DNA of 64,000 bases from the NCBI RefSeq assembly GCF_003063645.1, contig NZ_NESJ01000008.1:124001-188000 (forward strand), given 5' to 3'. Origin of the DNA: Limnohabitans sp. 2KL-51. GTDB lineage: Bacteria; Pseudomonadota; Gammaproteobacteria; Burkholderiales; Burkholderiaceae_C. The notes under the pieces are model-generated. The model was given only the letters and a program-made list of their open reading frames with translations. It had not been told where the DNA came from and ran no database searches. Shown one piece after another: positions 13,973-37,582 of the stretch. The translations under genes and the position numbers were made by a program. Positions within the stretch are counted from its first letter, which is position 1. Each line of letters opens with the position of its first letter.

Positions 13973-13989
13973 CACCATGTGTTCATGGT

Positions 13990-19759: not shown

Positions 19760-20947
19760 TCAAGGTTGGTATTGCAAACCCGGAAATTGCTGAGGCAAGG
19801 ATAAAAGTTGCCGATCACTGAAGCGGCGACTCATCAATGACAAGCCCAAAGCTTTGCCATCCAACACAGCCAGCGGCATGGTGATCTGCGGCAAACCCGC
19901 CATTGATGCAAGGCTCAACAAAGTCAATGCGTTGGTGCGGTCTTCAGCACTGCTGGCATGGCCTTTTTGGGGTGCCAGGTAGGAGACTGTTGGCAAGCAA
20001 ATGACCGCCCCTTCCAGATAAGCATTCACCACGGCAACATTTTTCAGCATATCGGCTCGGGCCACTTGGGCCTGTTCATCATTGATCGTGGATGCCCATT
20101 CAAACCTTTCCTTGATGCCTGGGCCCAACTGCGGTTTTTGACTGCGAATCCATGGCCCATGCATTGACCAGGCCTCATGACCTTGAACCAAGCGAAACGG
20201 ATCTTGCCAATCAATCAATCGACCCTGTGAGAGAGGGTCCTTGACCTCGCCATTGAACAATCTGGCGATCCGATCGGTGAATGGCTTCAATGCCTTACCA
20301 AAGCCGGGATGCACAAGCCCCCAGATGTCTTCAGGCAGGGCCAACTTCAAATGACCAAACTCTCTGCCCTGTTGATCTGGCGGCAAAAGGACAGAGCCCA
20401 CACGCAAAAAATGATCCCAGGATTTGGACATCCAGCCGGGCGTATCAAAACTGGGTGCAAGTGGAACCACGCCCTGGGTGGACAAGACACCGTGTGTCGG
20501 CCTGAACCCCCAAAGACCACAGAAGCTGGCCGGCAAGCGAACGGAGCCCGCCGTGTCAGTGCCTATCGAAAAATCACACAATCCTGCAGCAGCAGCGGCG
20601 GCGGCACCAGAACTGGAACCACCAGGGATGCAATCAGGGTTATGGGGGTTCACTGGTGTTCCGTAGTGCACGTTTTCACCCACCAAGCTGTAAGCCAGTT
20701 CTTCCGTGATGGTTTTGCCGACGAAGCGAGCACCCGCGTTGAGAAGGCTTTGAAACAGCTCGGCATGCTGCAGCGGCACCGCGTGAGATGCGCGCCAATC
20801 AGGATTTCCTGCACCTGTGGCATGTCCTGCAATGTCAAAAAGATCTTTGACGGACATGGTCAAACCCGCCAATGGCCCATCGGCCTGCTCTTGGATAGAA
20901 AACACTTCTCCAGGAACAAATGCGTTCCAATCTGTATCGGCTGTCAC
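19760..20947 (-). CDS. Amidase signature-family hydrolase
   Basis: 395-residue amidase. The Ser-Ser-Lys triad is visible: Lys in MSVKDLFD (about 34), the glycine/serine loop GGSSSGAAAAA (about 108) and the nucleophile loop GTDTAGSVRLPA (about 130). It hydrolyses an amide to acid and ammonia. The GTG at 20947 is chosen because AAGGAGA lies 8 bases upstream; a TTG at 20965 is in frame but includes that site. It is somewhat short for the family (usually 450-500) and is the promoter-distal gene of the 18-gene cluster. Substrate unknown. Confidence 0.85.
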   Translation of the reverse strand: MTADTDWNAFVPGEVFSIQEQADGPLAGLTMSVKDLFDIAGHATGAGNPDWRASHAVPLQHAELFQSLLNAGARFVGKTITEELAYSLVGENVHYGTPVNPHNPDCIPGGSSSGAAAAAAAGLCDFSIGTDTAGSVRLPASFCGLWGFRPTHGVLSTQGVVPLAPSFDTPGWMSKSWDHFLRVGSVLLPPDQQGREFGHLKLALPEDIWGLVHPGFGKALKPFTDRIARLFNGEVKDPLSQGRLIDWQDPFRLVQGHEAWSMHGPWIRSQKPQLGPGIKERFEWASTINDEQAQVARADMLKNVAVVNAYLEGAVICLPTVSYLAPQKGHASSAEDRTNALTLLSLASMAGLPQITMPLAVLDGKALGLSLMSRRFSDRQLLSLPQQFPGLQYQP

Positions 20948-20985
20948 AGTCTCTCCTTGGTTCAATCAATGCTCAAAATTTTGGC

Positions 20986-22161
20986 TTATGCCTTGATCTT
21001 GAAGAGTTTCATGGCGCTGCCACCCTTGATCAGTTTTCGATCTTCTGCACTCAAGTGACCGACGCTGTCGATCAACTTAACAGGGTTGTCTTCACCCATA
21101 TCAAAAGGGTAATCGGTGCCAAGGAGAATGCGCTGGGCGCCATAGCGGTCAACAAGATTACCCAAAATTTGAGCATCATGGGTGATGGTGTCAAAGTAAA
21201 TTTTCTCCAAATAACTGGAGGGTTTTTTCTGGATGACTGTGCGGGCATCTGCACGGGCCTTCCAGGCATGGTCCATTCGCGCCCAATAGCTTGCAATGTA
21301 GCCACCACCATGCGAAGCCAAAATTTTCAATTTGGGATAACGGGCCAGAACACCATCAAAAATCAAGTGGCCCAAAGCCAAACTGGTTTCGAGGGGATTG
21401 CCCATCACGTTGTTGAAGTAATGTTCAACGAAACGCTCACCTTGTGAAAACCCCATGGGATGCAGAAAAAGAACAATGCCCATGCTCTCGGCTTTGGCGA
21501 AAAACTTTTCCAGCTTCAAGGCAGGATCGGTCAGATTTTTACCGTTGACATTGGTACAAATTTGAACACCGCGCAGACCCAGAACGTTGACGGCATGCTC
21601 CAACTCCTGAATGGCCAACTCCACGTCCTGCAAGGGGATCGTCCCCATCCCGACAAAACGATCAGGTCGTTGATCAACGACCATCGCAATGCTCTCGTTG
21701 ATATCGCGGGATATCTGGGCACCCAGCACAGGCTCGGTGAAGTAAAAATATTGAATGGGCGCCGGGGAGATCACTTGAACATCAACACCCATTTTGTCCA
21801 TGTCCTTGAGCCTGACCTCTACCTGGTTGAATTTGGGCCCGCGCTCCTGAATCTGCTTCGTGTTCACTTGGCGCGACAACTCGGTGGCATAAACAGCGGT
21901 GGCATCGTGCTTGGCAGGCTGCAAGTGCGCGTATTTCGCGCCGACCACTGGGCTGAGGTAGTGGCAATGCACATCCACCACCTTCGCGGGCGACACCCGC
22001 TTGATCGCCTTGCCCGAAAGCGACTCAGGCGAAGGTGTCCGTTTGGACGCACCCGCTGAAGCCATCGCCTGTCTGGGCAAGGAAAACAAGCCCGACACAC
22101 CAGAGCTGGCTGAGTGGCGGTGACTGGGATTTTGACAAGAAGATGAGCAAGTGTAAAACAT
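20986..22161 (-). CDS. Amidohydrolase-2 (ACMSD-like) metal-dependent decarboxylase or hydrolase
   Basis: 391-residue TIM-barrel protein. Metal ligands typical of aminocarboxymuconate-semialdehyde decarboxylase relatives are seen: HCH in VVDVHCHYLSP (about 65), His in LFLHPMGFS, His in ILASHGGGYIA and Asp in LLGTDYPFDMG. Members decarboxylate aromatic or heterocyclic acids without oxygen, or hydrolyse related rings. The first 60 residues (Ser-rich, RRL-free) do not belong to the barrel; the start is uncertain and 22065 (MASAG) is an alternative. Within this cluster a non-oxidative decarboxylation of a ring acid or of an opened product is plausible. Confidence 0.83.
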   Translation of the reverse strand: MFYTCSSSCQNPSHRHSASSGVSGLFSLPRQAMASAGASKRTPSPESLSGKAIKRVSPAKVVDVHCHYLSPVVGAKYAHLQPAKHDATAVYATELSRQVNTKQIQERGPKFNQVEVRLKDMDKMGVDVQVISPAPIQYFYFTEPVLGAQISRDINESIAMVVDQRPDRFVGMGTIPLQDVELAIQELEHAVNVLGLRGVQICTNVNGKNLTDPALKLEKFFAKAESMGIVLFLHPMGFSQGERFVEHYFNNVMGNPLETSLALGHLIFDGVLARYPKLKILASHGGGYIASYWARMDHAWKARADARTVIQKKPSSYLEKIYFDTITHDAQILGNLVDRYGAQRILLGTDYPFDMGEDNPVKLIDSVGHLSAEDRKLIKGGSAMKLFKIKA

Positions 22162-22263
22162 GGTTCAACCGGACTTTCAAAGAAAAAAGAACATGAGACA
22201 GCCCATCAAGGCCTGAGCATTGTGCGGATTCAAACGGGCATGGGCAGTCATATAGGCGCGTCT

Positions 22264-24366: not shown

Positions 24367-24396
24367 CTCAGACCTACTCCGACTGTGCGTGGCTCA

Positions 24397-24945
24397 TCAG
24401 GGTGTCCCATTCAGACCACCCTGCACGTGAAGCTTCAAATCGGCCAAGCGCTGTTTGGCCAGATCAACCGCTTTGAGAATCCTGGTGTGGGTACCACAAC
24501 GGCACAAATGACGGTCCAGAACGCGGATGATCTGATCGCGATCTGGCGATAAATTTTGACGGAACAGCAACACCAATGAAACCAAGATGCCATTGACGCA
24601 ATAGCCGCATTGAGCGGCCTGCACATCGATGAACGACTGGTGAACAACAGAACCAATTTCATTGCTCATCAAATAGTCGACCGTCTCCACAGTTTGCAGA
24701 TCAGCAGCCCCTAGTGGCGTTTCGCAAGACTGAACCGCCTGGCCATTCAAGCCCACCGTGCAGGCACCACAGTGACCACTGCCGCAACCAAAGCGAACAC
24801 TTTTACAGTCAAGCTGATGGCGCAAAACATAAAGAAGCGGCGTTTGCTTTGCCACTTCAGCAGTTTTCCATTCGCCGTTGATGTGTATTTGGGCCAAGTT
24901 ATGAAACCCGACCGGAGACATTGACGCACAGCACTTGGAAACCAT
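24397..24945 (-). CDS. Molybdenum hydroxylase 2Fe-2S subunit
   Basis: 182-residue iron-sulfur protein. The plant-type ferredoxin cluster is bound by FGCGSGHCGACTVGL and a later Cys (QSCETP); the second cluster by AAQCGYCVNGI and LCRCGTHTRI in the four-helix domain. It passes electrons from the molybdenum centre. It is immediately upstream of the large subunit (30-base gap). The first 15 residues (CC-containing) may be a mis-set start; an in-frame ATG at 24921 gives 174 residues, but neither start has a clear ribosome site. Confidence 0.9.
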   Translation of the reverse strand: MVSKCCASMSPVGFHNLAQIHINGEWKTAEVAKQTPLLYVLRHQLDCKSVRFGCGSGHCGACTVGLNGQAVQSCETPLGAADLQTVETVDYLMSNEIGSVVHQSFIDVQAAQCGYCVNGILVSLVLLFRQNLSPDRDQIIRVLDRHLCRCGTHTRILKAVDLAKQRLADLKLHVQGGLNGTP

Positions 24946-25901: not shown

Positions 25902-27320
25902 TCATGGCATGGACGATGGCGGTAAGGCTTGATGCCAAGGGGTCACGGTCTGAAATGCATGCCCCAACTTCAACAACTTGCCTTCATCAAAAGCCCGCCC
26001 CACCAATTGAAAGGCGACCGGCATCGAATTCACAAATCCGGCCGGAACACTCAGGGAGGGTAAGCCCAGATAATTGATAGCGCGGTTGCAATGCGTGATG
26101 ATGGCAATTTTTTTGGAGATGACACCCCAGTCACCCTCAGTGGTTTCTGCGATGCTGGGAACTGGAACAGGTATCGTTGGCAGCAAAGCACAATCGGCAT
26201 CGCGCATCGTCATGCTCACCCACTTGTGAGCCCATTCGGTTCTGGCACTGATGGCCTCGTAATAATCGATACCCGTGAAATCAAAACCTGGCATGAATCG
26301 CGCCAAAACCTGCTCTGCGTAATCCTGGCGTCGCGTCTCAATCCAGTGCTTGTGAAGCGATGCGGCCTCCACGGTCAAAACAATCGACATCAAACGATTG
26401 ATCGCGGCCATGTCGGGCGGTTCAGTGCGGATGATGGCAGCACCCAGGTCTGTGAAAACACGCTCGGCCTCTTCGATAGCGGTCGCAACGCCAGCATCCA
26501 GATGCTCTCGGTAATAGCCGCTAGGCACAGCTATTTTCATGCCTCGCAAATCACCTTCCAGTTGGGCCTCGTAATCAGGAACTGCATGTTGGCTACTGAC
26601 AGGGTCCAGGCCATCATGCCCCGCCATGACCTTCAACAAACGTGCGCAATCGCGTGCGCTTCTGGCCAAAGGTCCAACGCAGTCCAGCGATTTGGACAAG
26701 GGCATCACCCCAAACGAACTCACCCTGGACCAGCTCGGTTTCAGACCGGTGACGCCGCACATCGCAGAGGGGTGACGAATCGAACCGCCGGTGTCGGTCC
26801 CCATGGATGCGTAAGTTAACCTAGCCGCCACTGCTGCCCCCGAACCACTCGAAGAGCCTCCGGGACAATCATCGGTATTCCAGGGGTTTCGCACATGGCC
26901 GTAATGCAAATTAAAACCCGTGGGACTCATGGCAAATTCTGCCATGTGCAAAAGGCCCAGATCAATGGCACCAGCTTCGTCCAATCGAGACAAGGCCGTT
27001 GACGTCACATCTGGGATGAAGTCTTTCGTGATGATGGAACCATCATTGGTTTTTCGACCTCGCCGGTAAAACAACTCTTTGTGCGCCATGGGAACGCCGT
27101 GCAGCAACCCCAGAGATTTGCCTTGGGATTGGAGCGCATCGGCCCTGCGCGCGGACTGCAATGCTGCCTCTGCCTGAAGGGAAGACACACAATTGAGCTG
27201 TGGCCCTATTTTTTGCAATCGGTCCAAAGCAATTTGTGTCAGTTTTTCCGAGCTGACCTCACCCCGAGCAATGGCGCTGGCCGCCTCACATACGCCCAAA
27301 TTCGCTAGTTGATCGGTCAT
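25902..27320 (-). CDS. Amidase signature-family hydrolase
   Basis: 472-residue amidase of normal family length. The triad is seen as Lys in PMAHKELFYRRG (about 82), GGSSSGSGAAVAA (about 154) and GTDTGGSIRHPS (about 178). It is related to aspartyl/glutamyl-tRNA amidotransferase subunit A, but no gatB or gatC is nearby, so a catabolic amidase is more likely. It differs clearly from the shorter amidase at 19760, so the cluster has two distinct enzymes for amide bonds. Confidence 0.88.
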   Translation of the reverse strand: MTDQLANLGVCEAASAIARGEVSSEKLTQIALDRLQKIGPQLNCVSSLQAEAALQSARRADALQSQGKSLGLLHGVPMAHKELFYRRGRKTNDGSIITKDFIPDVTSTALSRLDEAGAIDLGLLHMAEFAMSPTGFNLHYGHVRNPWNTDDCPGGSSSGSGAAVAARLTYASMGTDTGGSIRHPSAMCGVTGLKPSWSRVSSFGVMPLSKSLDCVGPLARSARDCARLLKVMAGHDGLDPVSSQHAVPDYEAQLEGDLRGMKIAVPSGYYREHLDAGVATAIEEAERVFTDLGAAIIRTEPPDMAAINRLMSIVLTVEAASLHKHWIETRRQDYAEQVLARFMPGFDFTGIDYYEAISARTEWAHKWVSMTMRDADCALLPTIPVPVPSIAETTEGDWGVISKKIAIITHCNRAINYLGLPSLSVPAGFVNSMPVAFQLVGRAFDEGKLLKLGHAFQTVTPWHQALPPSSMP

Positions 27321-27338: not shown

Positions 27339-28043
27339 TTAGCGAACACCCAGGAAACGCTGCATGGTGTCACGGTCATTCATCAATTCATCGGCCAGGC
27401 AGTGGTGAACAATTTCACCCGTCTCCATCAGGTACACCTCATGGGCCACCGACAAAGCGCTGTAAAGATTTTGTTCAACCAACAAGATGCCCAAACCGGT
27501 TTTACCCAACTCGGCAACGATCTCTTCCAGGTGTTGAACCATGACAGGTGCCAGCCCTTCGGTGGGCTCATCCATCAACAACATTTCGGGATCGGTCATC
27601 AAAGCTCTGGCCACTGCGAGCATTTGTCGTTCGCCGCCCGAGAGCTGGGTGCCCAAATTGTTCTTGCGCTCCTCCAAGCGAGGAAACAGCTCGAACATCT
27701 TCTTGATCGTCCATTTGCTGTCAGAATTTTTGGAGGCAAAAACCGTCAAATGTTCGGTGACAGTCAAAGATGCAAAAAGTCGTCGACCTTGCGGGACAAA
27801 TCCAATGCGCTTGGAGGCAATCAAGTGCGGGCTGAGGCCCACCAACTCATGCCCATCGTATTTGACACTGCCTTTGCTGATGCGAGGCGGGTTCAAGCCC
27901 ATGATGGAACGGATCAGCGTGGTCTTACCCATCCCGTTTCGTCCCAGCAAAGCCACAACCTTGCCTTTTGGCACTTTCATGTTGACGCCACGCAAAATAT
28001 GGGCATCACCGTAATAACTGTGCAGATCACTGATTTCAAGCAT
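27339..28043 (-). CDS. livF: Branched-chain amino-acid/amide ABC transporter ATPase LivF
   Basis: 234-residue ATPase with Walker A GRNGMGKTTL, the signature LSGGERQMLA, Walker B LLMDEP and the LivF-type start MLEISDLHSYYGDAHILRGV. The ATG at 28043 overlaps the livG stop by 8 bases. With LivG it powers the permease encoded upstream. Confidence 0.93.
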   Translation of the reverse strand: MLEISDLHSYYGDAHILRGVNMKVPKGKVVALLGRNGMGKTTLIRSIMGLNPPRISKGSVKYDGHELVGLSPHLIASKRIGFVPQGRRLFASLTVTEHLTVFASKNSDSKWTIKKMFELFPRLEERKNNLGTQLSGGERQMLAVARALMTDPEMLLMDEPTEGLAPVMVQHLEEIVAELGKTGLGILLVEQNLYSALSVAHEVYLMETGEIVHHCLADELMNDRDTMQRFLGVR

Positions 28044-28791
28044 GGCGTGGCTTTCCCAAATAAACCTCTTGCACCTTTTCATCGGCACGAATCTCGTCAG
28101 GTGTTCCTCCAGTGAGCACTTGTCCGAAATGCAGGCACGTGACGTAATCCACCAAACCCAAGGCCAGATCCATGTCGTGTTCGATCAAGATCAAGGTGAG
28201 ATCTCTGGGCAGGGCATTGATGACATCGGCCATCTTGACCCGCTCTGCGGGTGACAAACCTGCAGCGGGCTCGTCGAGCAACAACAACTTGGGTTTTTGC
28301 ACCAAGGCCATGGCCATTTCCAATTGCCGCTGCTCACCATAAGACATGGTTTTGACCTCGGTGTTACGCTGCCCCGTCAACTGCGAATTCTCAAGCGCCA
28401 TCTCGATCGCTTCTTTTTCTGAGGGATTGGGCTGACCGCTACCAAAGAGCGCAAATTTGCGATTAGAAAGTCCGCAAACGGCCAAGCGTATGTTCTCCTG
28501 CACCGACAACTGTGGAAAAAGATTGGTGATCTGAAATGTGCGCGAGATACCCAGACTTGCCCGCTTGTTGGTGGAAAAGCGTGTCATGTCTGCCCCATCA
28601 AAGTGCACCGTTCCGCTGGAAATCGGAACCACACCGGCAATGGCATTGAACAATGTGGTTTTACCTGCACCATTGGGGCCAATGATGGCGCGCCTCTGGC
28701 CAGCAGGTACCGACAAGGTCACACCGTCTACAGCCCGCAAGGCACCAAAAGTGACACTCACGTTTTGAAGAGAAAGAATGGAATTCGTCAC
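28036..28791 (-). CDS. livG: Branched-chain amino-acid/amide ABC transporter ATPase LivG
   Basis: 251-residue ATPase with Walker A GPNGAGKTTL, signature MSYGEQRQLEMA, Walker B LLLDEPAAGLSP and the LivG C-terminal block IEHDMDLALGLVDYVTCLHFGQVL. The GTG at 28791 is chosen because AAGGGA lies 8 bases upstream; a GTG at 28839 is in frame but has no such site. Confidence 0.92.
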   Translation of the reverse strand: MTNSILSLQNVSVTFGALRAVDGVTLSVPAGQRRAIIGPNGAGKTTLFNAIAGVVPISSGTVHFDGADMTRFSTNKRASLGISRTFQITNLFPQLSVQENIRLAVCGLSNRKFALFGSGQPNPSEKEAIEMALENSQLTGQRNTEVKTMSYGEQRQLEMAMALVQKPKLLLLDEPAAGLSPAERVKMADVINALPRDLTLILIEHDMDLALGLVDYVTCLHFGQVLTGGTPDEIRADEKVQEVYLGKPRHA

Positions 28792-28876
28792 AAAAAATAT
28801 CCCTTGATGGCCAGTGTGCCTGAGGGCTTGCTCAGACACACTGACAGGCGTGCTTCAATGCTTGTTGATCAACCGA

Positions 28877-30133
28877 TCAGGACTTCTTGATCCCCTGGAA
28901 ATCACGGCTGTATGGAGGTTGCTTCATGTAAACCTCAGGGTCGTATTTGCCAAATTGCGACACGCCAGGGTAGACCTCGATCGGGACGTTCCAGAACTTG
29001 CCATCCGGACGGACTTTTGTTTCGCGAATGAACACGTCATACACAGGGTTGCCATACCGGTCCAATTTGACGGGTCGACCCAGTGGCGAATTGGTCAATT
29101 CGGTCGACCTGACCGCGTTGAGGAAGGCTGTTTTGTCCTCAACACGGCCATTGATTTTCTTGATCGCTTCGGCAATCCACATGGCACCCGAATACAGTGA
29201 AAAACCGTAAATCGAGGGCAATTTGTCGTAGGCAGCAGTGTATTCAGCCACAAACTTTTTGGTGGCTGCGTTGTCTGAGCCTTCAGCAAAGTGCGCAGAA
29301 GAAATAATGCCACCGGACTCCGCACCCAGGGTGCGAATCACGGACTGGTCTGTCAGGTTCATGGCACCGTACATGGGCAACTTGCCCTGCAGGCCAAAGT
29401 TCTGAAATTGCTTGATGAAGCGGTTGGCATCCGCGCCGGTTTCCATCACGAAAACAGCATCGGCACCCGCATTTCTGATCTGCGCCAGGTAGGGGCTAAA
29501 GTCTGCCGTGTTGATGGGGTGCCAGAACTGCTGAATGACCTGACCACCCAATTCGGTGAAGGTCTGGCAAAAACCACCGCACTGCTCATGGCCAAAGGTG
29601 TAGTCCTGGGAAATCGTCACGATCTTGCGGACTTTTTTCACGTTGTAAGCGTATTCAGCCAATGGCCGTGGCATCTGGCTGGCGGAATAACCGGCCACAC
29701 GGATGATGTTGGGCACGGCTTTGCGTTGTGTCAATTCATCTGCCGCAACGACTGGAATGAAGTAAGGCGTTCCACTGGAACGCGCGAATTCCGAAATGGC
29801 CAAACCGGTGTTGGCCAAGACACTGCCCATCAGGAAGTGCACATTGCGCTGCTCCACCAGTCGACGTGATTTTTGCAAGGCCATGTCTGGGTTGGAGCCG
29901 TCGTCTTCCACCACGATCTCGACCTGACGTCCTGCCAAAGTCAAACCGTTTTGCTTCCAGTACAGCTCGAAACCCTCAACCAGTTCTTTGCCGCCAGCTG
30001 CCAAGACCCCGGTCAATGGCGACAACAAACCAATACGGATAGGCCCTGTTTGGGCTTGCGCAGTATTGACCCAAGGCGCTGCGCCAGCAGCCACAGTCAA
30101 ACCTACGGATTTAATGAAATTTCTACGTTCCAT
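28877..30133 (-). CDS. ABC transporter substrate-binding protein (Leu/Ile/Val or aromatic-acid type)
   Basis: 418-residue periplasmic receptor. The start MERRNFIKSVGLTVAAG ending AQAQ is a twin-arginine type signal peptide (residues 1-28). The mature part begins IRIGLLSPLTGVLAAGGKEL, the type I periplasmic-binding fold of family HAAT, and includes ISQDYTFGHEQCGGF. The ATG at 30133 has AGGAG upstream. This receptor class includes binders of amides, urea and aromatic acids as well as amino acids, so it may bind the heterocycle degraded by this cluster. Confidence 0.9.
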   Translation of the reverse strand: MERRNFIKSVGLTVAAGAAPWVNTAQAQTGPIRIGLLSPLTGVLAAGGKELVEGFELYWKQNGLTLAGRQVEIVVEDDGSNPDMALQKSRRLVEQRNVHFLMGSVLANTGLAISEFARSSGTPYFIPVVAADELTQRKAVPNIIRVAGYSASQMPRPLAEYAYNVKKVRKIVTISQDYTFGHEQCGGFCQTFTELGGQVIQQFWHPINTADFSPYLAQIRNAGADAVFVMETGADANRFIKQFQNFGLQGKLPMYGAMNLTDQSVIRTLGAESGGIISSAHFAEGSDNAATKKFVAEYTAAYDKLPSIYGFSLYSGAMWIAEAIKKINGRVEDKTAFLNAVRSTELTNSPLGRPVKLDRYGNPVYDVFIRETKVRPDGKFWNVPIEVYPGVSQFGKYDPEVYMKQPPYSRDFQGIKKS

Positions 30134-30183
30134 GATGCACTCCTGATTGATGAAAAAACAATGGAAAAACAACTACGGCTTAC

Positions 30184-31116
30184 TTACTTCTTCTCACGCG
30201 ACTTGAGAAAATTACGGGCAGCACCCAGAACGCCGGTTGGGGCAAAGATCATCGTGAAGATGAACATGAAGCCCAGCACCATCAACCAACGCTCGGTGTA
30301 CAAACTGACAAAATTTTCAAGGGCAATGACCAAGATGGCCCCGATGATGGCGCCGAACAAAGTGCCTACACCGCCCACAATGGCCATCAACAAGCCCTCT
30401 ACAGATTGCGCCAATGCGACTGTTGAAGGGCTGACAAAGCTGTTGAAAAAAGCATACAAGGCACCCGCAATGCCTGCGAAGAATCCGGACACGACAAAGC
30501 CAATGAACAAATGCAGCGGAACGTTGTACCCCAAGGTCCGCATGCGCGACTCACTGTCGCGAATCCCCTTCAAGGTCAGCCCGAAGGGTGAATTGACAAA
30601 CTTCCACAAGCTGAAAGTCACCACGGCGAAACAGGCTGCGACAAAGTAGTACAGATTCTTTTTATTGAGCAACCATTCGGGTGCCACACTGCCACGAATG
30701 CCGTTCTCTCCGCCGGTGACAGACGTCCACCGCAAACAAACGCCCCAGACAATCATGCCCAGGGCCAGAGTCAGCAAGATGAAGTACACCCCTGAGGTTC
30801 TGATTGCCAACGCTGCAAAGATCATGGAAATGACCATGGCCGCCAATATGCCAAAAAAGGCACCCAGCCAAACCGATCCACCGATCACCGTGACGTAATG
30901 GAGGACCACGTAGGTGGCCACACCAAAGATGGCGCCATGGCACAAGGAGGTTCTCCCCGTGAAACCCGCCATGATGTCAACCGACATGGCCAGCATGGCG
31001 AAAATCAAAATTTCAGTCGCAATGCTGGTTTTGTAGCCTGGTAAAAGCGTCGGAATCAGTGCCAGCACCGTCAGGCCCAAGATGGCATAAACCGCTTGTT
31101 TTTTGTTGACCAACAT
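30184..31116 (-). CDS. livM: Branched-chain amino-acid/amide ABC transporter permease LivM
   Basis: 310-residue membrane protein with about ten hydrophobic segments and the LivM landmark MAGFTGRTSLCHGAIFGVATY near residue 50 and VSGFFAGIAGALYAFFNSFVSP near residue 213. Its ATG directly follows the livH stop codon. Confidence 0.92.
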   Translation of the reverse strand: MLVNKKQAVYAILGLTVLALIPTLLPGYKTSIATEILIFAMLAMSVDIMAGFTGRTSLCHGAIFGVATYVVLHYVTVIGGSVWLGAFFGILAAMVISMIFAALAIRTSGVYFILLTLALGMIVWGVCLRWTSVTGGENGIRGSVAPEWLLNKKNLYYFVAACFAVVTFSLWKFVNSPFGLTLKGIRDSESRMRTLGYNVPLHLFIGFVVSGFFAGIAGALYAFFNSFVSPSTVALAQSVEGLLMAIVGGVGTLFGAIIGAILVIALENFVSLYTERWLMVLGFMFIFTMIFAPTGVLGAARNFLKSREKK

Positions 31117-31974
31117 TTAAGCCACCTTTCCAAAAAGACCCAATGGTCTGAATGCCAAGAGAATGGCCATGGGCCCAAAAATCACGAAATAAGCCAATTC
31201 AGGAAACCAGACCTGCCCGAAAGTGGAGAGCATGCCCACCAACAAACTGCCCACCGCAGCACCAATCAAGCTGCCGCGCCCACCGATGATCACAACGGCC
31301 AGGCTGTAGACCAGAATTTCGGAATCTGCGGTGGGGTAAAGCGTCAGGAATGCGCCCCCCATCACACCACCCAAACCAGCCAGTGCAGAACCCAGCATGA
31401 AGGTGTAAATAAACACTCTGCGAATGTCTACACCCATGGCAGAGACTGTTTCGGCATCGTCGACGCCAGCGCGGATCAGAGCCCCGAGTCGGGTCTTGGT
31501 GATCAAAAGACTCAGCGAGATGAAAATCACCACCCCAACCAATAGGACAAACAATCGGTATATCGGGTAGGTGATGCTTCCGAATTCAGCGGGGCCATCC
31601 AGGAAAGCCGGCACCTGAATGCTGAAGGTGTCGCCTCCCCACAAAACCAAAGCCAGATCGTTGAGTACAAAGGCGACGCCCAGGGTCAGCAACACCTGTC
31701 GGAGTTCGACCCCACGCACAAACCTCAGCAGTCCAAAGTCAATGATGAAACCGATCAGCGCAACACCCACCGCAGCGCCAATGGCCCCCAAAAAGAAGTT
31801 GCCAGTCAGGTTGGCCACGGTCAACCCCAAATAACCTCCAAAAAGGTACAGGGCACCATGCGCCAGATTCACGATTCGCATGAGACCAAAGATCAAGGTA
31901 AAGCCGCTGGCCACGACGAACAGCAAAGCCGCAAATGTTGCTCCATTGAGGAGTTGAAATATCGTCATTGACAC
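31117..31974 (-). CDS. livH: Branched-chain amino-acid/amide ABC transporter permease LivH
   Basis: 285-residue membrane protein with the LivH motifs SGFTLIFGLMRIVNLAHGALYLFGGY near the N-terminus and AGLGGVMGGAFLTLYPTADSE near residue 200. GTG at 31974 or ATG at 31968 can serve as start; AAGGATG lies upstream of both. A 98-base gap separates it from the deacetylase-like gene, the longest within the upper half of the cluster, so an internal promoter is possible. Confidence 0.92.
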   Translation of the reverse strand: MSMTIFQLLNGATFAALLFVVASGFTLIFGLMRIVNLAHGALYLFGGYLGLTVANLTGNFFLGAIGAAVGVALIGFIIDFGLLRFVRGVELRQVLLTLGVAFVLNDLALVLWGGDTFSIQVPAFLDGPAEFGSITYPIYRLFVLLVGVVIFISLSLLITKTRLGALIRAGVDDAETVSAMGVDIRRVFIYTFMLGSALAGLGGVMGGAFLTLYPTADSEILVYSLAVVIIGGRGSLIGAAVGSLLVGMLSTFGQVWFPELAYFVIFGPMAILLAFRPLGLFGKVA

Positions 31975-32072: not shown

Positions 32073-32957
32073 TCAGTCCCGGTCAAACTGAGAAGGTTGC
32101 GACGCATACCAGTCCAGGATCTGCTCTCCTGTCCAGAACAACACATCCTTGCGCGCACGAATTTCAGTCAACAGTTGTTTGTAATATTTGAGACGATGGG
32201 GTGCCCCCATGATGTAGGGGTGAACCACCAAGGCCATCACACGTGCTGAATCGGCAGAGTCTTCATAAATTTGCTCAAATTGATCCATGCCCCGGCGGTA
32301 GTATTCCGAAGCGGTGTGGTGCTGAATCAGCATCATCGCGACATCGTTGCACTCTTGGGTGTAAGGCACGTTGACGATGGGTTGATGGCGTGTCTTCAAG
32401 ACCACCGGTTGATCATCCAAAACCCAATCACACACGTACTCATAACCGTTCTCGGACAACAAGTCAGGGGTATGCCAGGTTTCTGTCAAGCCGGGCCCCA
32501 GCCAGCCGCGAGGACGTTTCTGAGTGAACGCCTTGATCGCTTCGGTGGTTTTGGCTATGTCTTCCTGCTCGTTTTCGACCTTCTGCATGTTTCTCTGGGT
32601 ATAACCGTGGCCCATGAACTCCCATCCCCTGTCCAGAGCAGCCTGAGAGATCGGCTCATAGGCCTTGATGGCCGAACCATTGATGGCCAACACCGCCTTG
32701 ATGTCGAGTTCATCAAGCACCTTCAACATCCGCCAGAAACCCACCCGGTTACCGTATTCATGCCACGCCCAGTTGGGAATATCAGGCATGGGCGATCCGC
32801 CTGCTGGCGGTGTCAGAACCGTTCTTGGCATCGTTTGATCGATGTCCCACTCTTCAATGTTCACGATGGTCCAGACCACCATGCGTGCCCCACCTGGCAA
32901 CTTTAGCGGCTTTCGGGCGTTGATCGGAGAGTATTGAATTCTTTCCAAAGGCTTCAT
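32073..32957 (-). CDS. PuuE-like polysaccharide deacetylase-family hydrolase, copy A
   Basis: 294-residue NodB-fold protein. PNWAWHEYGNRVGFWRML, WEFMGHGYTQRNMQ, GWLGPGLTETWHTPDLL and VHPYIMGAPHRLKYY are the recognisable blocks of the PuuE allantoinase/cyclic-imidase branch. The NodB metal motif (TFDDG) is replaced by NIEEWD, which argues against sugar deacetylation and for hydrolysis of a cyclic amide bond. The ATG at 32957 has CAGGAG upstream. It is a paralogue of copy B at 33657, equal in length, with a FAH-family gene between them. Confidence 0.85.
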   Translation of the reverse strand: MKPLERIQYSPINARKPLKLPGGARMVVWTIVNIEEWDIDQTMPRTVLTPPAGGSPMPDIPNWAWHEYGNRVGFWRMLKVLDELDIKAVLAINGSAIKAYEPISQAALDRGWEFMGHGYTQRNMQKVENEQEDIAKTTEAIKAFTQKRPRGWLGPGLTETWHTPDLLSENGYEYVCDWVLDDQPVVLKTRHQPIVNVPYTQECNDVAMMLIQHHTASEYYRRGMDQFEQIYEDSADSARVMALVVHPYIMGAPHRLKYYKQLLTEIRARKDVLFWTGEQILDWYASQPSQFDRD

Positions 32958-32961
32958 GTCA

Positions 32962-33657
32962 TCAGCTCCTGGCACCAATGGTGATTTCCAAATTGCTCAA
33001 TCCCTGGACCGTTCCACGAAGAACATCGCCAGGAAAAACGGGTGCAACCCCAGCCGGTGTTCCGGTGTAAATCAGATCGCCTTCTGCCAAGTCGTATGCA
33101 TGCGAAAGCTTGCTGACAATTTCAGGCACATTCCAGATCATTTTTTCGATCACCGAATCCTGTTTGCTTTGCCCATTGACCGACACAGCAATGCGCCCAC
33201 TCTGCAGGTGCCCAACCTCGGCGACCGTACGCAAATTGCCACAAGGTGCAGAGGCATCGAAACTCTTTCCAATTTCCCATGGCAAGCCATTTTTTCCGGA
33301 TTCACGTTGGCGATCGCGCCGAGTCATGTCCAAACCCACTGCATAGCCAAAAACATGGTCCAGTGCCCTCTCTTGGCTGACCGAACGACCGGCCTTGCCG
33401 ATGGCGATCACCAGTTCCACTTCAAACTGGAAGTCTTCGGTTTGCGGGGGGTAAGGCACCGTTTGTCCGCTCAGCACAATGGCGTCGCGAGGCTTCTGAA
33501 AAAAGAAGGGCGGGTCACGCTCATCCGACTCCTTCATTTCGCGAATATGCTCCAGGTAATTGCGACCCACGCAATAAATCCTTCTGACCGGAAAAAAGGT
33601 GTCCGACCCGTCAACTGGAACCACCACAACTTCGGGTAACTGAACTGCGTAGTGCAT
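32962..33657 (-). CDS. Fumarylacetoacetate hydrolase-family protein (fumarylpyruvate hydrolase-like)
   Basis: 231-residue FAH-fold enzyme. IYCVGRNYLEHIREM and PPFFFQKPRDAIV near residues 28-60 are very like gentisate-pathway fumarylpyruvate hydrolases; metal-binding acids lie in FQFEVELVIAIGKAG and the GYAVGLDMTRRDRQ segment. It cleaves a C-C bond in an acylpyruvate or hydrolyses/decarboxylates a related keto acid. The TGATG overlap with copy B upstream indicates coupling. No ring-cleavage dioxygenase is present to make fumarylpyruvate, so a different acylpyruvate-type intermediate is likely. Confidence 0.87.
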   Translation of the reverse strand: MHYAVQLPEVVVVPVDGSDTFFPVRRIYCVGRNYLEHIREMKESDERDPPFFFQKPRDAIVLSGQTVPYPPQTEDFQFEVELVIAIGKAGRSVSQERALDHVFGYAVGLDMTRRDRQRESGKNGLPWEIGKSFDASAPCGNLRTVAEVGHLQSGRIAVSVNGQSKQDSVIEKMIWNVPEIVSKLSHAYDLAEGDLIYTGTPAGVAPVFPGDVLRGTVQGLSNLEITIGARS

Positions 33658-34541
33658 CACTTGGCTGTCTTTCTGGCGGTTTGGTACCAGTCCAGAATCT
33701 GCTCACCATTCCAGTGCATCACACCCGTATGTTTGGCCATGTGCTTGTAAACCTCTTCAAGGTATTTGATGCGGAAAGGCTGACCGGAAATATAGGGATG
33801 AATGGCAATGGCCATCACACGTGGACGGTCCGAGCCTTCCTCATACAAGCGGTCAAAGGTGTCGATGCACTTTTGCGTCCAGTAGGAAGCCTCATGGTGC
33901 TGTACAGCCATCATGGGGATATCGTTGTTTTCAACGGTATAGGGGATGGTGATCAGCGGACCATGCTCGGTTTGAATTTCGGTGGGCTCTTCGTCATAGA
34001 CCCAGTCACCAATGTATTTGACGCCCGCTGCGGCCAGATGGTCAGGCGTTTCATTAGTTTGAGTCAGACCTGGGCCAAGCCAGCCCACAGGACGCTTGCC
34101 GGTGAATTTTTCAATCACATCCAATGAGCGCTTGATCATCGCAGGCTGGTCCGGCTCGAGGTGAATCGGGCCTTGCTGGTAGCTGTGGCCCATGAACTCC
34201 CAACCGGCATCCAGACACGCCTGAGCCACGCGGGGATAGTCTTCGCAAACACGGGCGTTGATGGACAAAGTGGGTTTGATGCCCAGCCTTTGGTAGAGCT
34301 CATGAAAGCGCCAGAATCCCACCCGCATGCCGTATTCGTGCCAGCTCCAATTGGGCACATCCGGCAAAAGCACAGCCCCTGTTGGCGCCGGTATGACCTG
34401 ACGGGCCATGGGCTTGCTGATGTCCCAAACCTCCAAATTGACAATGGTCCAGACAATGATCTTGCCGTCATCGGGCAATTTCATTTTGGGGCGATCAACA
34501 ATCGCACTGTAGGGAACTCGTTCGCGTGGAATCATGGTCAT
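33657..34541 (-). CDS. PuuE-like polysaccharide deacetylase-family hydrolase, copy B
   Basis: 294-residue NodB-fold protein paralogous to copy A, with PNWSWHEYGMRVGFWR, WEFMGHSYQQGPIHL, GWLGPGLTQTNETPDHL and IHPYISGQPFRIKYL. The metal motif position reads NLEVWD, again without the Asp pair of deacetylases. AAGGAGTG precedes the ATG. Known relatives include allantoinase PuuE and, as I recall, a bacterial cyclic imidase; ring opening of a lactam, imide or ureide is therefore the best guess. Two copies may form a heteromer or act on successive ring substrates. Confidence 0.85.
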   Translation of the reverse strand: MTMIPRERVPYSAIVDRPKMKLPDDGKIIVWTIVNLEVWDISKPMARQVIPAPTGAVLLPDVPNWSWHEYGMRVGFWRFHELYQRLGIKPTLSINARVCEDYPRVAQACLDAGWEFMGHSYQQGPIHLEPDQPAMIKRSLDVIEKFTGKRPVGWLGPGLTQTNETPDHLAAAGVKYIGDWVYDEEPTEIQTEHGPLITIPYTVENNDIPMMAVQHHEASYWTQKCIDTFDRLYEEGSDRPRVMAIAIHPYISGQPFRIKYLEEVYKHMAKHTGVMHWNGEQILDWYQTARKTAK

Positions 34542-34553
34542 GTCTTCACTCCT

Positions 34554-35024
34554 TTATTTCTGGACGTAGTTGATTACCCAACTTTCAACAATCTGACTGC
34601 CCGCTTGCTTCAGGATCACGGACATGGGGCATCGCGCATTCAGGTCCTCGCGCAGACGAAGCATGTCGTCTTCAGTGCCTGAGGTCGTGGCATTCACCTT
34701 CAATTCAATAATAGGAAACGGCACAGGCACATCGGCCACCCGGTCAATGCCACGGTGGTCCAAATGGCCCAGCACATCGATCTTGTCGATCTTCAAATCG
34801 ATCTTCATCTCCATCGCAATGCGGCGTGCAATCACATTGGTGCAACCGATCAAGGCACCCAATAAAGTCTCCAATGGCGTAGGCCCCACATCGGTGCCAT
34901 GCCGGTAGGGTGGCTCATCGATCACAAACGAATGGCCACGCACACGCACTTCCGTGAGACTCGCTGTGGGCGCATAACCCTCCAACGCCACCTTGATCAA
35001 CTTGTGCTCTTTGACATTCAGCAC
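34554..35024 (-). CDS. OsmC family protein
   Basis: 156-residue OsmC/Ohr-fold protein with the two redox cysteines in LIGCTNVIARRIAM (about 73) and NARCPMSVIL (about 135). It may reduce organic peroxides, though OsmC proteins in catabolic clusters often have other unknown roles. The GTG at 35024 has AAGGAAAT upstream and overlaps the aldolase gene by 7 bases. Confidence 0.87.
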   Translation of the reverse strand: MLNVKEHKLIKVALEGYAPTASLTEVRVRGHSFVIDEPPYRHGTDVGPTPLETLLGALIGCTNVIARRIAMEMKIDLKIDKIDVLGHLDHRGIDRVADVPVPFPIIELKVNATTSGTEDDMLRLREDLNARCPMSVILKQAGSQIVESWVINYVQK

Positions 35025-35710
35025 GCTATTTCCTTTTTGAGTGCCTCAAGACCCGGCTTGATCAGCGCTTCTAAGCTGTGAAAGTTGAACACGGCGCCCT
35101 TTTTTTGCCAAGCTTTGGCATTAGCCAAAGTGACAGGCAAACCAAAACGTTCACCCTGCTCCTTGATTTTTCGGGCGATGTGATCCAAAGCCTCTTGCAC
35201 TTGAGGCACCGTGATATCGCCGCCAAAACCCATGCTGTGAGACAAGTCATAAGGCCCGATCAGGAACAAATCAAACCCTTTGACAGCCAGGATCTCATCG
35301 ATATTTGTCATCCCTGCCTCAGACTCGATCTGGGGAATGATGATCATGTCACCCGCCCTGCTGCCACAGGCATAACTGACGGTTTCCAAAATAAGCCTTG
35401 CCTCTTGCGCCGTTTCAACCCGGGGAACGATCAAGCCATCAATGCCCCGATCCAGATAACTCACCCAGTCCTCCACCTGCCGGGTTTTGCTGCGGACCAC
35501 CGCTGCTGCACCATGTCGCTGGGCCGCGCGAGCCATGGGCCCCACCATGTCGATGCCAATTCCGGCCCGTTCGCAATCGATGAACAAAATGTCTATGCCC
35601 AATTTGGACACCAAATCAGCCATGTCAAAACCACCAGCAAAGGTGTTGATGGCCAACACTGGCTGATTGGCTTGAATTTTGTTTTTGGCGTTGGATCGAA
35701 AATTCGTCAT
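35018..35710 (-). CDS. HpcH/HpaI aldolase/citrate lyase-family protein, altered active site
   Basis: 230-residue TIM barrel of the class II pyruvate aldolase family. The metal-site Glu and Asp are visible in IPQIESEAG (about 145) and LIGPYDLS (about 170), and the pyruvate-binding Arg in VVRSKTRQVEDW (about 72). At the position where HpaI has the catalytic His (EHA or EHG) this protein has CERAG, an Arg instead. It may act on a different substrate or use another base. Its start overlaps the isochorismatase-like gene as ATGA. Confidence 0.85.
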   Translation of the reverse strand: MTNFRSNAKNKIQANQPVLAINTFAGGFDMADLVSKLGIDILFIDCERAGIGIDMVGPMARAAQRHGAAAVVRSKTRQVEDWVSYLDRGIDGLIVPRVETAQEARLILETVSYACGSRAGDMIIIPQIESEAGMTNIDEILAVKGFDLFLIGPYDLSHSMGFGGDITVPQVQEALDHIARKIKEQGERFGLPVTLANAKAWQKKGAVFNFHSLEALIKPGLEALKKEIAC

Positions 35711-36348
35711 GCTTTTTTCAGTTCATTTAAAGACATGATTTCAGCGCTGGTCATCACAAATCCAAGCGCCGTTCGTATGCAAAGCAAAGCGGCATCGTGC
35801 AAACCAGGATCGTCCATGGTGTCCACACAGTCGCTGGGCACAATGACCGCGTAATCCTTGGAACAAGCGGCCGCAACAGTTGAAAGCACACAACTGTTGG
35901 TGTTGACACCCGTGATGATGAGGGTGTTGATCCCGTGGGCTCTCAATGTGAAATCCAGATCAGTTCCTACAAAGCAGTCGTAGCGCTTTTTGGTGTTCAC
36001 GATCCAGTCTTTTTTCGCATCCAACACTTGCGGCATCACCGTGCACCCAGGTGATCCCTGCAAATTGTGGCGCTCCACATTTTTGCGCGTGGCATGCGGA
36101 TCATCGGCTCGCGTTCTCCAAAACGGGTTGGACCGAATTTCAGGCACATCACGGTAAGTGGTCACCAAGTGGATGACAGGCCAATCCTGTTCACGGCACC
36201 AAGCAAACAATTGGGCGGCATTGCCCAGAACACGATCGGCTTGGGCCTGTGTCTTGACAGGCATGGTGGCCACAGAAAGGTCCATGTGGCCACGGTGCAA
36301 ATCGATCGCGATGACGGCTGCTTTGACTTTGTCGACACCAAAATTCAT
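35707..36348 (-). CDS. Isochorismatase-like cysteine hydrolase
   Basis: 213-residue hydrolase. The Asp-Lys-Cys triad is seen in AVIAIDLHRGHMD (Asp about 15), NTKKRYDCFVG (Lys about 120) and GVNTNSCVLSTVAA (Cys about 154). Family members include maleamate amidase (NicF), N-carbamoylsarcosine amidohydrolase and ureidoacrylate hydrolase, all acting on linear amides formed in N-heterocycle catabolism. In this cluster it is a good candidate for removing ammonia from the opened ring. Confidence 0.88.
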   Translation of the reverse strand: MNFGVDKVKAAVIAIDLHRGHMDLSVATMPVKTQAQADRVLGNAAQLFAWCREQDWPVIHLVTTYRDVPEIRSNPFWRTRADDPHATRKNVERHNLQGSPGCTVMPQVLDAKKDWIVNTKKRYDCFVGTDLDFTLRAHGINTLIITGVNTNSCVLSTVAAACSKDYAVIVPSDCVDTMDDPGLHDAALLCIRTALGFVMTSAEIMSLNELKKA

Positions 36349-36355
36349 GACAGCC

Positions 36356-37582
36356 TCAGATCAAAGGGTTGTGAGAAGTGCTCAGCAGTTTTTTCTGATC
36401 GATGCCAAAACGGTCTGCCAACCAATCGGCCAGAATTTCCTGACCGATGGTCGGGTTGTCATGCTGGCAATGCTCCGCGCCCGTCTCTTCTTCAGACAAC
36501 AAGCGCAAGGTCACATCCACCCCCTTGGCCTTACCGTAGTCATAGACCTTCTTGGCTTGCGATACGGTCAACACATCGTGCCCACCGTGCATGACCAAAA
36601 ACGGACACTTCATGTGATCAAGATGACCATCCAGGGTGAAGTCGCGCGCCTTTTCCATGGAAGCTTTCATGGTGGGTTTGCCAAAAACCCACTTGATGTG
36701 CTCAGCCAAGCCATGGTCTTCAGAGGCATTGCCCCAGAGGTCGGTGATGGCCCAGATGGCACCATGCGCAATGCAAGCGGCCAAACGCGGCTCATAACAA
36801 CCCGCACGCGCAGCGTAATACCCTCCCAGGCTGGAGCCCGCCACAGCAATGCGCTTGGGATCCACATCGTCACGCTTTTCAAGCCAGTCAATGCACTTGC
36901 CAATGGGCACTTCGGTGTCGACCCTGTTAACGACGTTGTGGCGACGCAAAGTACCGCCCTGGCCGGGGCCGTCGATCATCAACACCGAGATGCCACGCTG
37001 AACAGCACCACGGGCTTGCATGAACCACATTTCATCCTTGATGGAATCCAGACCACCCATGCAAATCAACACGGGTTGGCGCTTCTCGGGGAAAGGCGCA
37101 CGCACGAAGTAGCCGCAAATAGTGACCCCGTTTTCGTAAGGAATTTCAACCGCTTCACCCGCAGGATTCAAATGCGAAATGAACTTTTTGCTGCAAGCCT
37201 CCATCTTCTCGAATGTAGGCAAGCGACGAGGGTCATCGGGCTTGAGGAAAAATTCTGCCTGACGGTAATAGTCTGCAGCCCGCAAGTAACAGTTCATGGA
37301 CGTTTTGATGTGTCCCAGGCTCTCTTCTTCGCAGCCGCGATGCCAGTTGCGATCACCAATGTGCATCCATTCTTTGTGCCAGCTTTCAAGATCTCCGGGA
37401 ATCATGCGGCTGGCGGCTTGGAACACCTCACTGACCGAACCTCCACCCTCTTGGGTTTCGCCCAAGCCACGGCGGAACTGATACGCCAGCCAAGGGTGCT
37501 CTGGCCAGTGGTGCCAGCCGTAGGGCTCGTAATGCGGCAGTCGGTTTTCAGTGATTTTTTCGATCAGGTTGTCTTCTGACAT
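36356..37582 (-). CDS. Alpha/beta hydrolase of the 2,6-dihydropseudooxynicotine hydrolase-like group
   Basis: 408-residue protein with an N-terminal helical domain of about 140 residues (HWPEHPWLAYQFRRGLGE, then AADYYRQAEFF) and a C-terminal alpha/beta hydrolase fold. The nucleophile is Ser in AVAGSSLGGYYAAR (about 248), with acid and His candidates in VMHGGHDVLT and EEETGAEHCQHDN. This two-domain build is that of the C-C bond hydrolase of nicotine catabolism and of FrsA-like esterases. It is the first gene of the 18-gene cluster, with the palindrome at 37625 upstream. Confidence 0.85.
   Translation of the reverse strand: MSEDNLIEKITENRLPHYEPYGWHHWPEHPWLAYQFRRGLGETQEGGGSVSEVFQAASRMIPGDLESWHKEWMHIGDRNWHRGCEEESLGHIKTSMNCYLRAADYYRQAEFFLKPDDPRRLPTFEKMEACSKKFISHLNPAGEAVEIPYENGVTICGYFVRAPFPEKRQPVLICMGGLDSIKDEMWFMQARGAVQRGISVLMIDGPGQGGTLRRHNVVNRVDTEVPIGKCIDWLEKRDDVDPKRIAVAGSSLGGYYAARAGCYEPRLAACIAHGAIWAITDLWGNASEDHGLAEHIKWVFGKPTMKASMEKARDFTLDGHLDHMKCPFLVMHGGHDVLTVSQAKKVYDYGKAKGVDVTLRLLSEEETGAEHCQHDNPTIGQEILADWLADRFGIDQKKLLSTSHNPLI

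Follow-up and report, generated by a model that had tools for sequence, protein, structure and literature searches.

A horizontally acquired gene island in Limnohabitans that probably serves the hydrolytic breakdown of a nitrogen-containing ring compound

Results and discussion

In the stretch of DNA examined here, from the freshwater bacterium Limnohabitans sp. 2KL-51 (64,000 nucleotides of contig NZ_NESJ01000008.1, hereafter called 'the window', whose first nucleotide is position 1), 18 minus-strand genes form one close-packed run at 19760-37582. A preliminary description of the window had read this run as a compact operon for the degradation of a nitrogen heterocycle or cyclic imide without oxygenases. 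We conclude that the genes belong to an acquired island that probably lets the cell import a small nitrogen-containing ring compound and break it down, mainly by hydrolysis, as a source of nitrogen and carbon. The computed basis for this proposal comprises gene content, operon-like packing, a conserved core of genes, a conserved palindrome at the promoter, purifying selection and the predicted fold of two proteins that resemble PuuE.

Gene content of the island

Protein families were assigned with Pfam and NCBIfam for a set of 19 island proteins, namely the products of the 18 operon genes and a helix-turn-helix (HTH)-cupin regulator. All of the enzyme classes named in the preliminary description are encoded where it had placed them, on the minus strand, and so is the dedicated ATP-binding cassette (ABC) importer, a Liv/Urt-type system of two permeases, a binding protein and two ATPases. 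An OsmC-like gene (34554-35024) is an extra member absent from the earlier list. Because all 17 intergenic distances fall between -53 and 102 nucleotides, a single operon is plausible. The genes, in order of transcription, and the regulator gene are as follows.

36356-37582, minus: FrsA-like alpha/beta hydrolase (frsA), first operon gene; PDB sequence match 2jbw
35707-36348, minus: isochorismatase-like cysteine hydrolase, probable amide/ureide hydrolase; PF00857
35018-35710, minus: HpcH/HpaI-type aldolase homologue (hpcH); PF03328, best PDB match 4b5s
34554-35024, minus: OsmC-like protein (osmC); PF02566
33657-34541, minus: PuuE-like protein 1 (PuuE1), probable cyclic amide/imide hydrolase; PF01522
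32962-33660, minus: FAH-family acylpyruvase/fumarylpyruvate-hydrolase-like enzyme (fah); PF01557, best PDB match 4maq
32073-32978, minus: PuuE-like protein 2 (PuuE2), probable ring-opening cyclic amide/imide hydrolase; the ATG of residue 8 (32957) is likely to be the true start
31117-31974, minus: ABC permease of the LivH/UrtB type; PF02653, UrtB model below cut-off
30184-31116, minus: ABC permease of the LivM/UrtC type; PF02653, UrtC model below cut-off
28877-30172, minus: ABC substrate-binding protein; PF13458 and a Tat-signal model match
28036-28839, minus: ABC ATPase of the LivG/UrtD type; PF00005 and PF12399, TIGR03411 below cut-off
27339-28088, minus: ABC ATPase of the LivF/UrtE type; PF00005, TIGR03410 below cut-off
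25902-27320, minus: amidase-signature enzyme, AtzE/GatA-like (first amidase); PF01425
24980-25870, minus: 3-hydroxyisobutyrate-dehydrogenase (HIBADH)-family enzyme, accessory module; PF03446 and PF14833
24397-24945, minus: 2Fe-2S subunit of a molybdenum (Mo) hydroxylase (moS), accessory module; PF00111 and PF01799
22264-24366, minus: molybdopterin subunit of the Mo hydroxylase (moL); PF20256 and PF02738, PDB match 8gy3
20986-22161, minus: ACMSD-like Amidohydro_2 protein, probable decarboxylase or hydrolase; PF04909
19760-20965, minus: second amidase-signature enzyme, last operon gene; NF006169 at 435.4 bits against a cut-off of 391
18985-19731, plus: PuuR-like HTH-cupin regulator, beyond the 3' end of the operon; PF01381/PF13560 and PF07883

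A hydrolytic core is conserved in distant genera

Conservation was assessed in the best 80 of at least 590 PuuE2 relatives from a collection of species genomes, which are 70-98% identical to PuuE2 (loci and genomes are cited by L and G numbers). Loci that carry the genes for PuuE1, PuuE2 and LivH together were counted as core clusters, and 26 of the 80 do so. The presence cut-offs were set by us, and L031, in which puuE1 is split in two pieces, fell below them. Gene calls in the fetched loci came from a codon-score caller and are approximate. The gene counts given here are lower bounds, because contig ends and the 10-kilobase (kb) flank depress them, with the strongest effect on the last genes; the flank downstream of PuuE2 reaches about 10 kb in 20 of the 26 clusters.

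The other importer genes are present in nearly all of these clusters (LivM in 26 clusters, the binding protein in 25 and each ATPase in 24), as do, in most cases, the isochorismatase (24), FAH (23) and FrsA (22) genes. The first amidase was found in 16 clusters, the ACMSD-like gene in 13 (at a loose 30% cut-off, and a lower bound where flanks end), HpcH in 12, OsmC in six (L013, L014, L015, L032, L041 and L087) and the HIBADH-type gene in three. Flanks are too short for the second amidase, which was seen in a single core locus; the genomes of L013 and L014 also have the gene. Hosts include Bradyrhizobium, Tardiphaga, Azorhizobium, Aquabacter, Phreatobacter, Ramlibacter, Rubrivivax and Limnohabitans. 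Thus a hydrolytic core of FrsA, isochorismatase, two PuuE-like proteins, FAH and the Liv importer, often with the amidase and the ACMSD-like protein, recurs in Alpha- and Betaproteobacteria, many of them from soil and water. The recurrence of its gene order in so many other genera is far beyond chance and, with one probable operator, bears out the view of a co-conserved catabolic unit.

Smaller groupings also recur. FAH is present in 51 of the 80 PuuE2 loci, and a regulator-FAH-PuuE2-transporter arrangement occurs with MFS genes (typified by L029, in a family of 14 loci) or with TRAP genes (L030). The fah-puuE2 pair is found in Cupriavidus necator (L061 and L086), whereas Tardiphaga or Bradyrhizobium carries the long form. 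The FrsA-like protein and PuuE2 also served as queries against plasmid records, and four regions were read. The 147 FrsA matches are all below 60% identity, and eight of the 512 records matching PuuE2 reach 60-80%; none of the matches listed belongs to a record with a stated substrate for the gene set. One Variovorax plasmid and one Streptomyces plasmid group FAH, PuuE-like, MFS, TauE/SafE and amidohydrolase genes. In these two loci (L188, 4079-9924, and L189, 9271-14422; Streptomyces and Variovorax) the amidohydrolase is ATZ/TRZ-like, and the TauE/SafE-type exporter may point to a by-product that contains sulfur or is anionic. A variant cluster, represented by L053 and seen also in L040, L044, L047, L064, L070 and L090, has the importer followed by an aldehyde dehydrogenase, an ACMSD-like protein and a second PuuE-like protein, with an asparaginase-like gene in some cases.

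Within the order of the host, FrsA homologues at E = 1e-60 or better were found in 28 of 399 genomes. Besides the window's own, close ones occur only in G143 (87% identity), which keeps part of the gene order (L139), and in G182 (84%), which does not (L140). Seven regions with FrsA homologues of 60-67% identity (L141-L147) hold no other core genes alongside except weak FAH- or LivH-like matches.

Enzyme families encoded by the operon

The two PuuE-like proteins, which are 46% identical to each other, are predicted to adopt a PuuE-type fold that is distinct from that of CE4 deacetylases and scores well above CE4 enzymes. Among solved structures, PuuE and its like come closest to them, in keeping with the hydrolytic ring opening that had been proposed for them. 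Identity to the Pseudomonas PuuE allantoinase (PDB 3cl6 and 1z7a) is only about 22-24%, and the operon partners differ. In alignments of PuuE-like proteins, Gln128 occupies what we take to be the position of the second His of the NodB H-x3-H motif.

For the FrsA-like protein, the best PDB sequence match is 2,6-dihydroxypseudooxynicotine hydrolase (2jbw; 97 bits, E = 1.4e-26, query residues 59-393), with AntI and Yellowish-green-1-like proteins further down. Homology to this type is near full-length, and S251, D336 and H371, which by alignment we take to be the catalytic triad, are each retained in at least 97% of an alignment of 25 sequences, among them that of the window. From this likeness the protein is probably a C-C hydrolase of the retro-Claisen type. 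The resemblance extends to an apparent Ser-Asp-His in the best solved relative and is one of low identity. The FAH protein matches PDB 4maq best (245 bits) and FAHD1 at 145 bits, and is assigned to the acylpyruvase/fumarylpyruvate hydrolase type by the names of these matches alone. These assignments support the C-C-type and FAH hydrolases of the preliminary description.

The PDB matches of the first amidase are headed by GatA, and biuret hydrolase 6c62 is also among those listed; the ACMSD-like protein matches ACMSD (4igm) at 184 bits. The Mo hydroxylase belongs to the xanthine oxidase family, as judged by its 2Fe-2S subunit, its molybdopterin domains and Glu660 of moL. This residue, presumably the active-site Glu, lies within a GxGE motif that is conserved in four sequences. 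A MoCoBD_2 stretch stands at the N-terminus of moL, a domain order that we take to be IorB-like, and the cluster has no FAD subunit for this enzyme.

Purifying selection on the island genes

The ratio of nonsynonymous to synonymous substitution rates (dN/dS) was computed against the copies in two other Limnohabitans genomes, G032 and G010, and lies at 0.010-0.172 for every gene, with dS saturated for G010. The island genes are therefore under purifying selection. Against the G032 copy, values of 0.010-0.038 were obtained for frsA (0.010), the isochorismatase gene, both PuuE genes and four of the five transporter genes, values of 0.050-0.091 for hpcH, osmC, fah, one ATPase gene, the first amidase gene and the ACMSD-like gene, and values of 0.119-0.172 for the HIBADH-type gene, both Mo subunits (moL at 0.129), the second amidase gene and the regulator gene.

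A palindrome at the promoter and its probable regulator

Two elements lie ahead of frsA:

37642-37669, minus: sigma-70-like promoter TGGACA-16-TATGAT, 10 of 12 matches
37625-37639, no strand assigned: palindrome TTCAAGTnACTTGAA, a probable operator, located after the -10-like element and before the start of frsA

Scans found no excess of promoter-like sites (eight, with a mean of 11.2 in shuffled sequence) or of terminator-like sites (24, with 24.0 in shuffles). For this reason we place the frsA promoter solely by its position beside the conserved palindrome.

The palindrome TTCAAGTnACTTGAA is common to the four Limnohabitans sequences that were compared and to the Alcaligenaceae locus L015. 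Its exact form occurs at one site per genome in all six carrier genomes, in which a reversed-pattern control gave no sites. Among 40 genomes of the same genus, five have the exact sequence, once each, and 35 have none; the reversed pattern occurs as one chance site each in two of the 40. The regulator gene (at E = 1e-40) is present in exactly the five palindrome-bearing genomes, and the same five are those that, among 36 same-genus genomes, encode a PuuE2 94-100% identical to that of the window. The distance between palindrome and regulator gene is about 18.6 kb in all five, and in L015 the regulator gene stands directly before frsA. From these associations we infer that the HTH-cupin regulator binds the palindrome. 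Many alphaproteobacterial clusters have a GntR/FCD gene in place of the HTH-cupin gene (a family present in 38 of the 80 loci), and a TGTATACA-like box was noticed by eye upstream of several of them.

The island is an insertion

The G+C content of the cluster is 0.532, compared with 0.593 and 0.611 in its flanks. To the left of the island lie genes for KDPG aldolase, 2-keto-3-deoxy-galactonokinase and a ParE-like protein, and to the right those for pirin, DTW and RIO proteins, all of which serve other functions. Twenty-two genomes of the same genus (the host's own included) were searched with both flanking genes, and seven carry both anchors on one contig. The anchors are separated by about 23 kb in the window's genome and about 22 kb in G010, and by 2.3-2.8 kb in G013, G015 and G017; G004 and G021 have about 10 kb of a different arrangement between them. 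In the three island-free relatives G013, G015 and G017, comparison by blastn shows KDPG aldolase joined directly to pirin. Two further features mark the borders:

18640-18786, minus: incomplete second copy of the pirin 3' end, which marks the island's left edge; its gap-free segments match 38022-38170 at 84-88% identity
38005-38889, minus: intact pirin gene at the right border, outside the pathway; PF02678 and PF05726

Because of these empty sites and the partial pirin copy at its left edge, we conclude that the island is an insertion acquired horizontally by Limnohabitans. No integrase family is among those listed for the island's genes. The partial pirin duplicate is an insertion scar.

Ring hydroxylation as an add-on to the core

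The preliminary description had placed ring hydroxylation directly after import in an oxygenase-free order of steps. In the strict form of this reading, the Mo hydroxylase is the obligatory first step of one linear pathway and acts on an aromatic pyridine-type ring that PuuE then opens. Several arrangements fit such an order. In each of the four carriers whose DNA was compared (the window, G028 with L013, G010 with L014 and G032 with L158), the operon includes the Mo genes, and the spacing between palindrome and regulator gene is about 18.6 kb in all five palindrome carriers. Three alphaproteobacterial loci (L128, L129 and L133) likewise combine the two enzyme types: there a Mo homologue lies in a separate sister cluster that holds a PuuE-like gene of its own (51-52% identity to PuuE1), genes for Liv permeases and ATPases, and one gene each of the HIBADH-family and ACMSD-like types. 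L128 and L129 add genes for an alpha/beta hydrolase, for a flavin reductase and for a flavoprotein resembling acyl-CoA dehydrogenases. A Gfo/Idh/MocA gene is also present in both, and the L129 cluster spans 929-15289.

Nevertheless, an obligatory first hydroxylation appears doubtful. Both Mo subunits are linked to five of the 26 core clusters, or five of the 20 with about 10 kb of downstream flank; linked Mo genes were not seen at the other 21, 15 of which have such a flank. Although a Mo homologue (E = 1e-40 or better) exists somewhere in 23 of the 26 genomes, including the five linked ones, the unlinked homologues are for the most part found in other gene neighbourhoods. moS and moL rank with the more weakly constrained genes of the operon. 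In addition, an in-frame stop interrupts moL in one carrier, Limnohabitans sp. 2KL-17 (TAG; G434:C21:21708-23786, within L124; seen in the G010 copy), possibly a natural loss of the hydroxylase. Given the few linked clusters, the sister-cluster contexts and the in-frame stop, ring hydroxylation is probably an optional funnel into the hydrolytic core and not its obligatory first step. For Limnohabitans the step order of the preliminary description is plausible, but conservation of the pathway does not extend to its first step.

The sister clusters also bear on the term 'oxygenase-free'. No oxygenase family is among the matches listed for the 19 island proteins, and to that extent the term stands; because a luciferase-like monooxygenase gene adjoins the PuuE-like gene in all three sister clusters, it holds only for the gene content of the island.

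A different division would make the operon two independent modules under one promoter, with the hydrolytic genes serving one substrate and the Mo, HIBADH, ACMSD-like and amidase genes another. The two sets are indeed found apart in other genomes and differ in constraint. We regard this arrangement as unlikely, since the palindrome-to-regulator length is equal in all five carriers and the Mo genes stand directly after core genes in L060 and L067. Moreover, the PuuE-like gene that the sister Mo module holds for itself suggests related chemistry.

This relationship was examined around 20 higher-identity and 20 lower-identity Mo loci, the latter serving as controls; L172, one of the low-identity loci, contains a moL fragment of higher identity as well. 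A PuuE-like gene lies near Mo in five of 20 loci and in none of the controls (one-sided p = 0.024), and ACMSD-like (five versus none) and HIBADH-type genes (six versus none) are distributed similarly.

Proposed pathway and its strength

Judged from the sequence, the most likely substrates of the proposed hydrolytic pathway are cyclic amides, imides and ureides, or pyridones and pyrimidones in an already oxidised state. The Liv-type importer would bring the compound in, and PuuE2 would hydrolyse a ring C-N bond, with PuuE1 perhaps serving a second form of the substrate or a second ring bond. The isochorismatase-like enzyme and the amidase would then release ammonia. The acylpyruvase-type FAH protein and the FrsA-type hydrolase would cut the resulting beta-dicarbonyl or acylpyruvate chain to pyruvate-like and carboxylic acids, and HpcH/HpaI would clear a hydroxy-oxo acid. 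In Limnohabitans and a few other hosts, the accessory module (Mo hydroxylase, HIBADH-type enzyme, ACMSD-like protein and second amidase) probably feeds this core by water-derived hydroxylation and decarboxylation of less oxidised or carboxylated rings. Repression of the operon is probably exerted by the HTH-cupin protein at the palindrome, from which the substrate would release it.

Several observations weigh against this proposal or parts of it. The case is built on sequence and predicted fold. Family and fold do not specify chemistry, since NodB-fold proteins include deacetylases and the FAH family includes decarboxylases and tautomerases. A named acylaminoacyl peptidase (3fnb; 96.5 bits, E = 2e-26) nearly ties with 2jbw as the best match of the FrsA-like protein. 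The OsmC gene has no explained role in a hydrolytic pathway. FAH was not seen in 29 of the 80 PuuE2 loci (some of them cut by contig ends) and so may not act directly after PuuE2; some other PuuE2 loci have nothing but a transporter alongside. For Liv-type genes nearby, the higher-identity Mo loci and the controls did not differ (seven of 20 versus four of 20, p = 0.24). Because two of the five Mo-PuuE cases are already linked clusters, independent support for that association is thin: the five also include two near-identical gene sets, and setting the linked clusters aside leaves three of 18 versus none of 20.

The likeness to allantoinase raises the prospect of a ureide or purine-side pathway, with allantoin- or hydantoin-like ureides as substrates of the PuuE-like proteins, carbamoyl intermediates as those of the isochorismatase and the amidases, and an importer of the urea-like kind. 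TIGR03212 is the best NCBIfam match of both PuuE proteins, the isochorismatase matches BiuH and RutB, the importer subunits match Urt models and the first amidase is AtzE-like; a FAH-family ureidoglycolate lyase has also been described. However, these model matches all fall far short of curated cut-offs: the PuuE pair scores 108.0 (PuuE1) and 106.4 bits against the 424.6 required for the allantoinase equivalog, and the importer scores 148 against 250 (UrtB), 234 against 304 (UrtD) and 234 against 286 bits (UrtE). The BiuH and RutB models are also matched below cut-off. No allantoate-processing family is among those listed for the island proteins, and the FrsA-type hydrolase would have no obvious role, which makes a ureide pathway quite improbable. 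A role of the PuuE-like proteins in cell-wall or polysaccharide deacetylation, or another non-catabolic role, agrees with their Pfam label (polysaccharide deacetylase) and is extremely improbable given the predicted PuuE-type fold and the company of amidases, FAH and small-molecule importers.

Relation to described pathways

No whole-cluster match to a solved pathway emerged from the searches made, and no paper in open-licence full texts was recognised as describing the cluster; subscription papers were outside the scope of that search, which is no proof of absence. Catabolic clusters for nitrogen heterocycles are known as such, and the new element is the uncharacterised nucleus of PuuE and FAH.

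The preliminary description had contrasted the island with nicotinate and picolinate routes. The picolinate (pic) pathway also pairs a Mo hydroxylase with an Amidohydro_2-type protein (PicC, of the ACMSD family), and it uses a monooxygenase and a ring-cleaving dioxygenase that the island lacks. No flavin monooxygenase or ring-cleaving dioxygenase of the aerobic nicotinate and picolinate pathways is among the families listed for the 19 island proteins, and this part of the contrast holds. The contrast is incomplete, since the nicotinate route of Eubacterium barkeri and Azorhizobium caulinodans proceeds by hydroxylation and, after partial saturation, by hydrolytic C-N ring opening, with no ring-cleaving oxygenase (PMC9304392). 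Unlike the island, that route needs a 6-hydroxynicotinate reductase and a PF01979-type enamidase; no match to PF01979 was obtained for the 19 proteins, and no 6-hydroxynicotinate-type reductase was recognised among the listed families. A HIBADH-family dehydrogenase is shared with that route.

The PuuE-like proteins belong to the same superfamily as HxnM, the cyclic imide hydrolase of nicotinate degradation in Aspergillus nidulans, where an amidase acts next (PMC9304392). HxnM resembles the metal-binding HpPgdA. In its pathway it is preceded by a Mo hydroxylase, by two more hydroxylations and by reductions, whereas the island has no monooxygenase or recognised ring reductase. The island FAH protein is of the same family as acylpyruvase FAHD1/fumarylpyruvate hydrolase and as KpiD, which is proposed to split 3-formylpyruvate in 4-hydroxypyridine catabolism (PMC7356986). 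That pathway opens its ring by a dioxygenase, unlike the island.

Two other candidates were rejected. The riboflavin/lumichrome pathway (PMC12746152) shares amidases, a xanthine-oxidase-type step and a FAH gene, and its P450, Rieske and catechol dioxygenases are absent from the island. An isonicotinate/citrazinate route was considered, and a literature search for it gave nothing useful.

A broader possibility, which we put forward tentatively, is that the island is one form of a widespread, oxygen-independent, almost wholly hydrolytic and undescribed route for a common natural nitrogen heterocycle. A PuuE-family enzyme would open an oxidised ring (a hydroxypyridine or pyrimidine in its lactam or imide tautomer) with water, and an acylpyruvase-type FAH protein would cleave the chain to pyruvate. 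PuuE, FAH and a transporter would be the minimal set, and the Limnohabitans island would extend it by a Mo hydroxylase and an ACMSD-like decarboxylase that admit aromatic ring acids. Because the PuuE-FAH nucleus and the extended operon recur with transporter and regulator swapped, there is probably an ecologically common nitrogen compound without a known bacterial degradation pathway. If the ring is indeed opened by hydrolysis, the known scope of oxygen-free heterocycle breakdown in aerobes would widen, and a large number of proteins that at present bear the label polysaccharide deacetylase or allantoinase would be reassigned. The single-palindrome regulon, the strains with empty sites and the carrier with a stop in a Mo subunit make the question testable.

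Other features of the window and its genome

Seven PuuE2 matches occur in the genome of the window (on contigs C1, C5, C6, C8 and C75), and hence there are several PuuE-like paralogues, perhaps with other roles. The ParE-like toxin gene at the left edge of the island occupies 18030-18407 on the minus strand, beside KDPG aldolase. Beyond the right border, an open reading frame of 505 amino acids (37825-39342, plus strand) has no Pfam or NCBIfam match, overlaps the minus-strand pirin gene and is probably not a gene.

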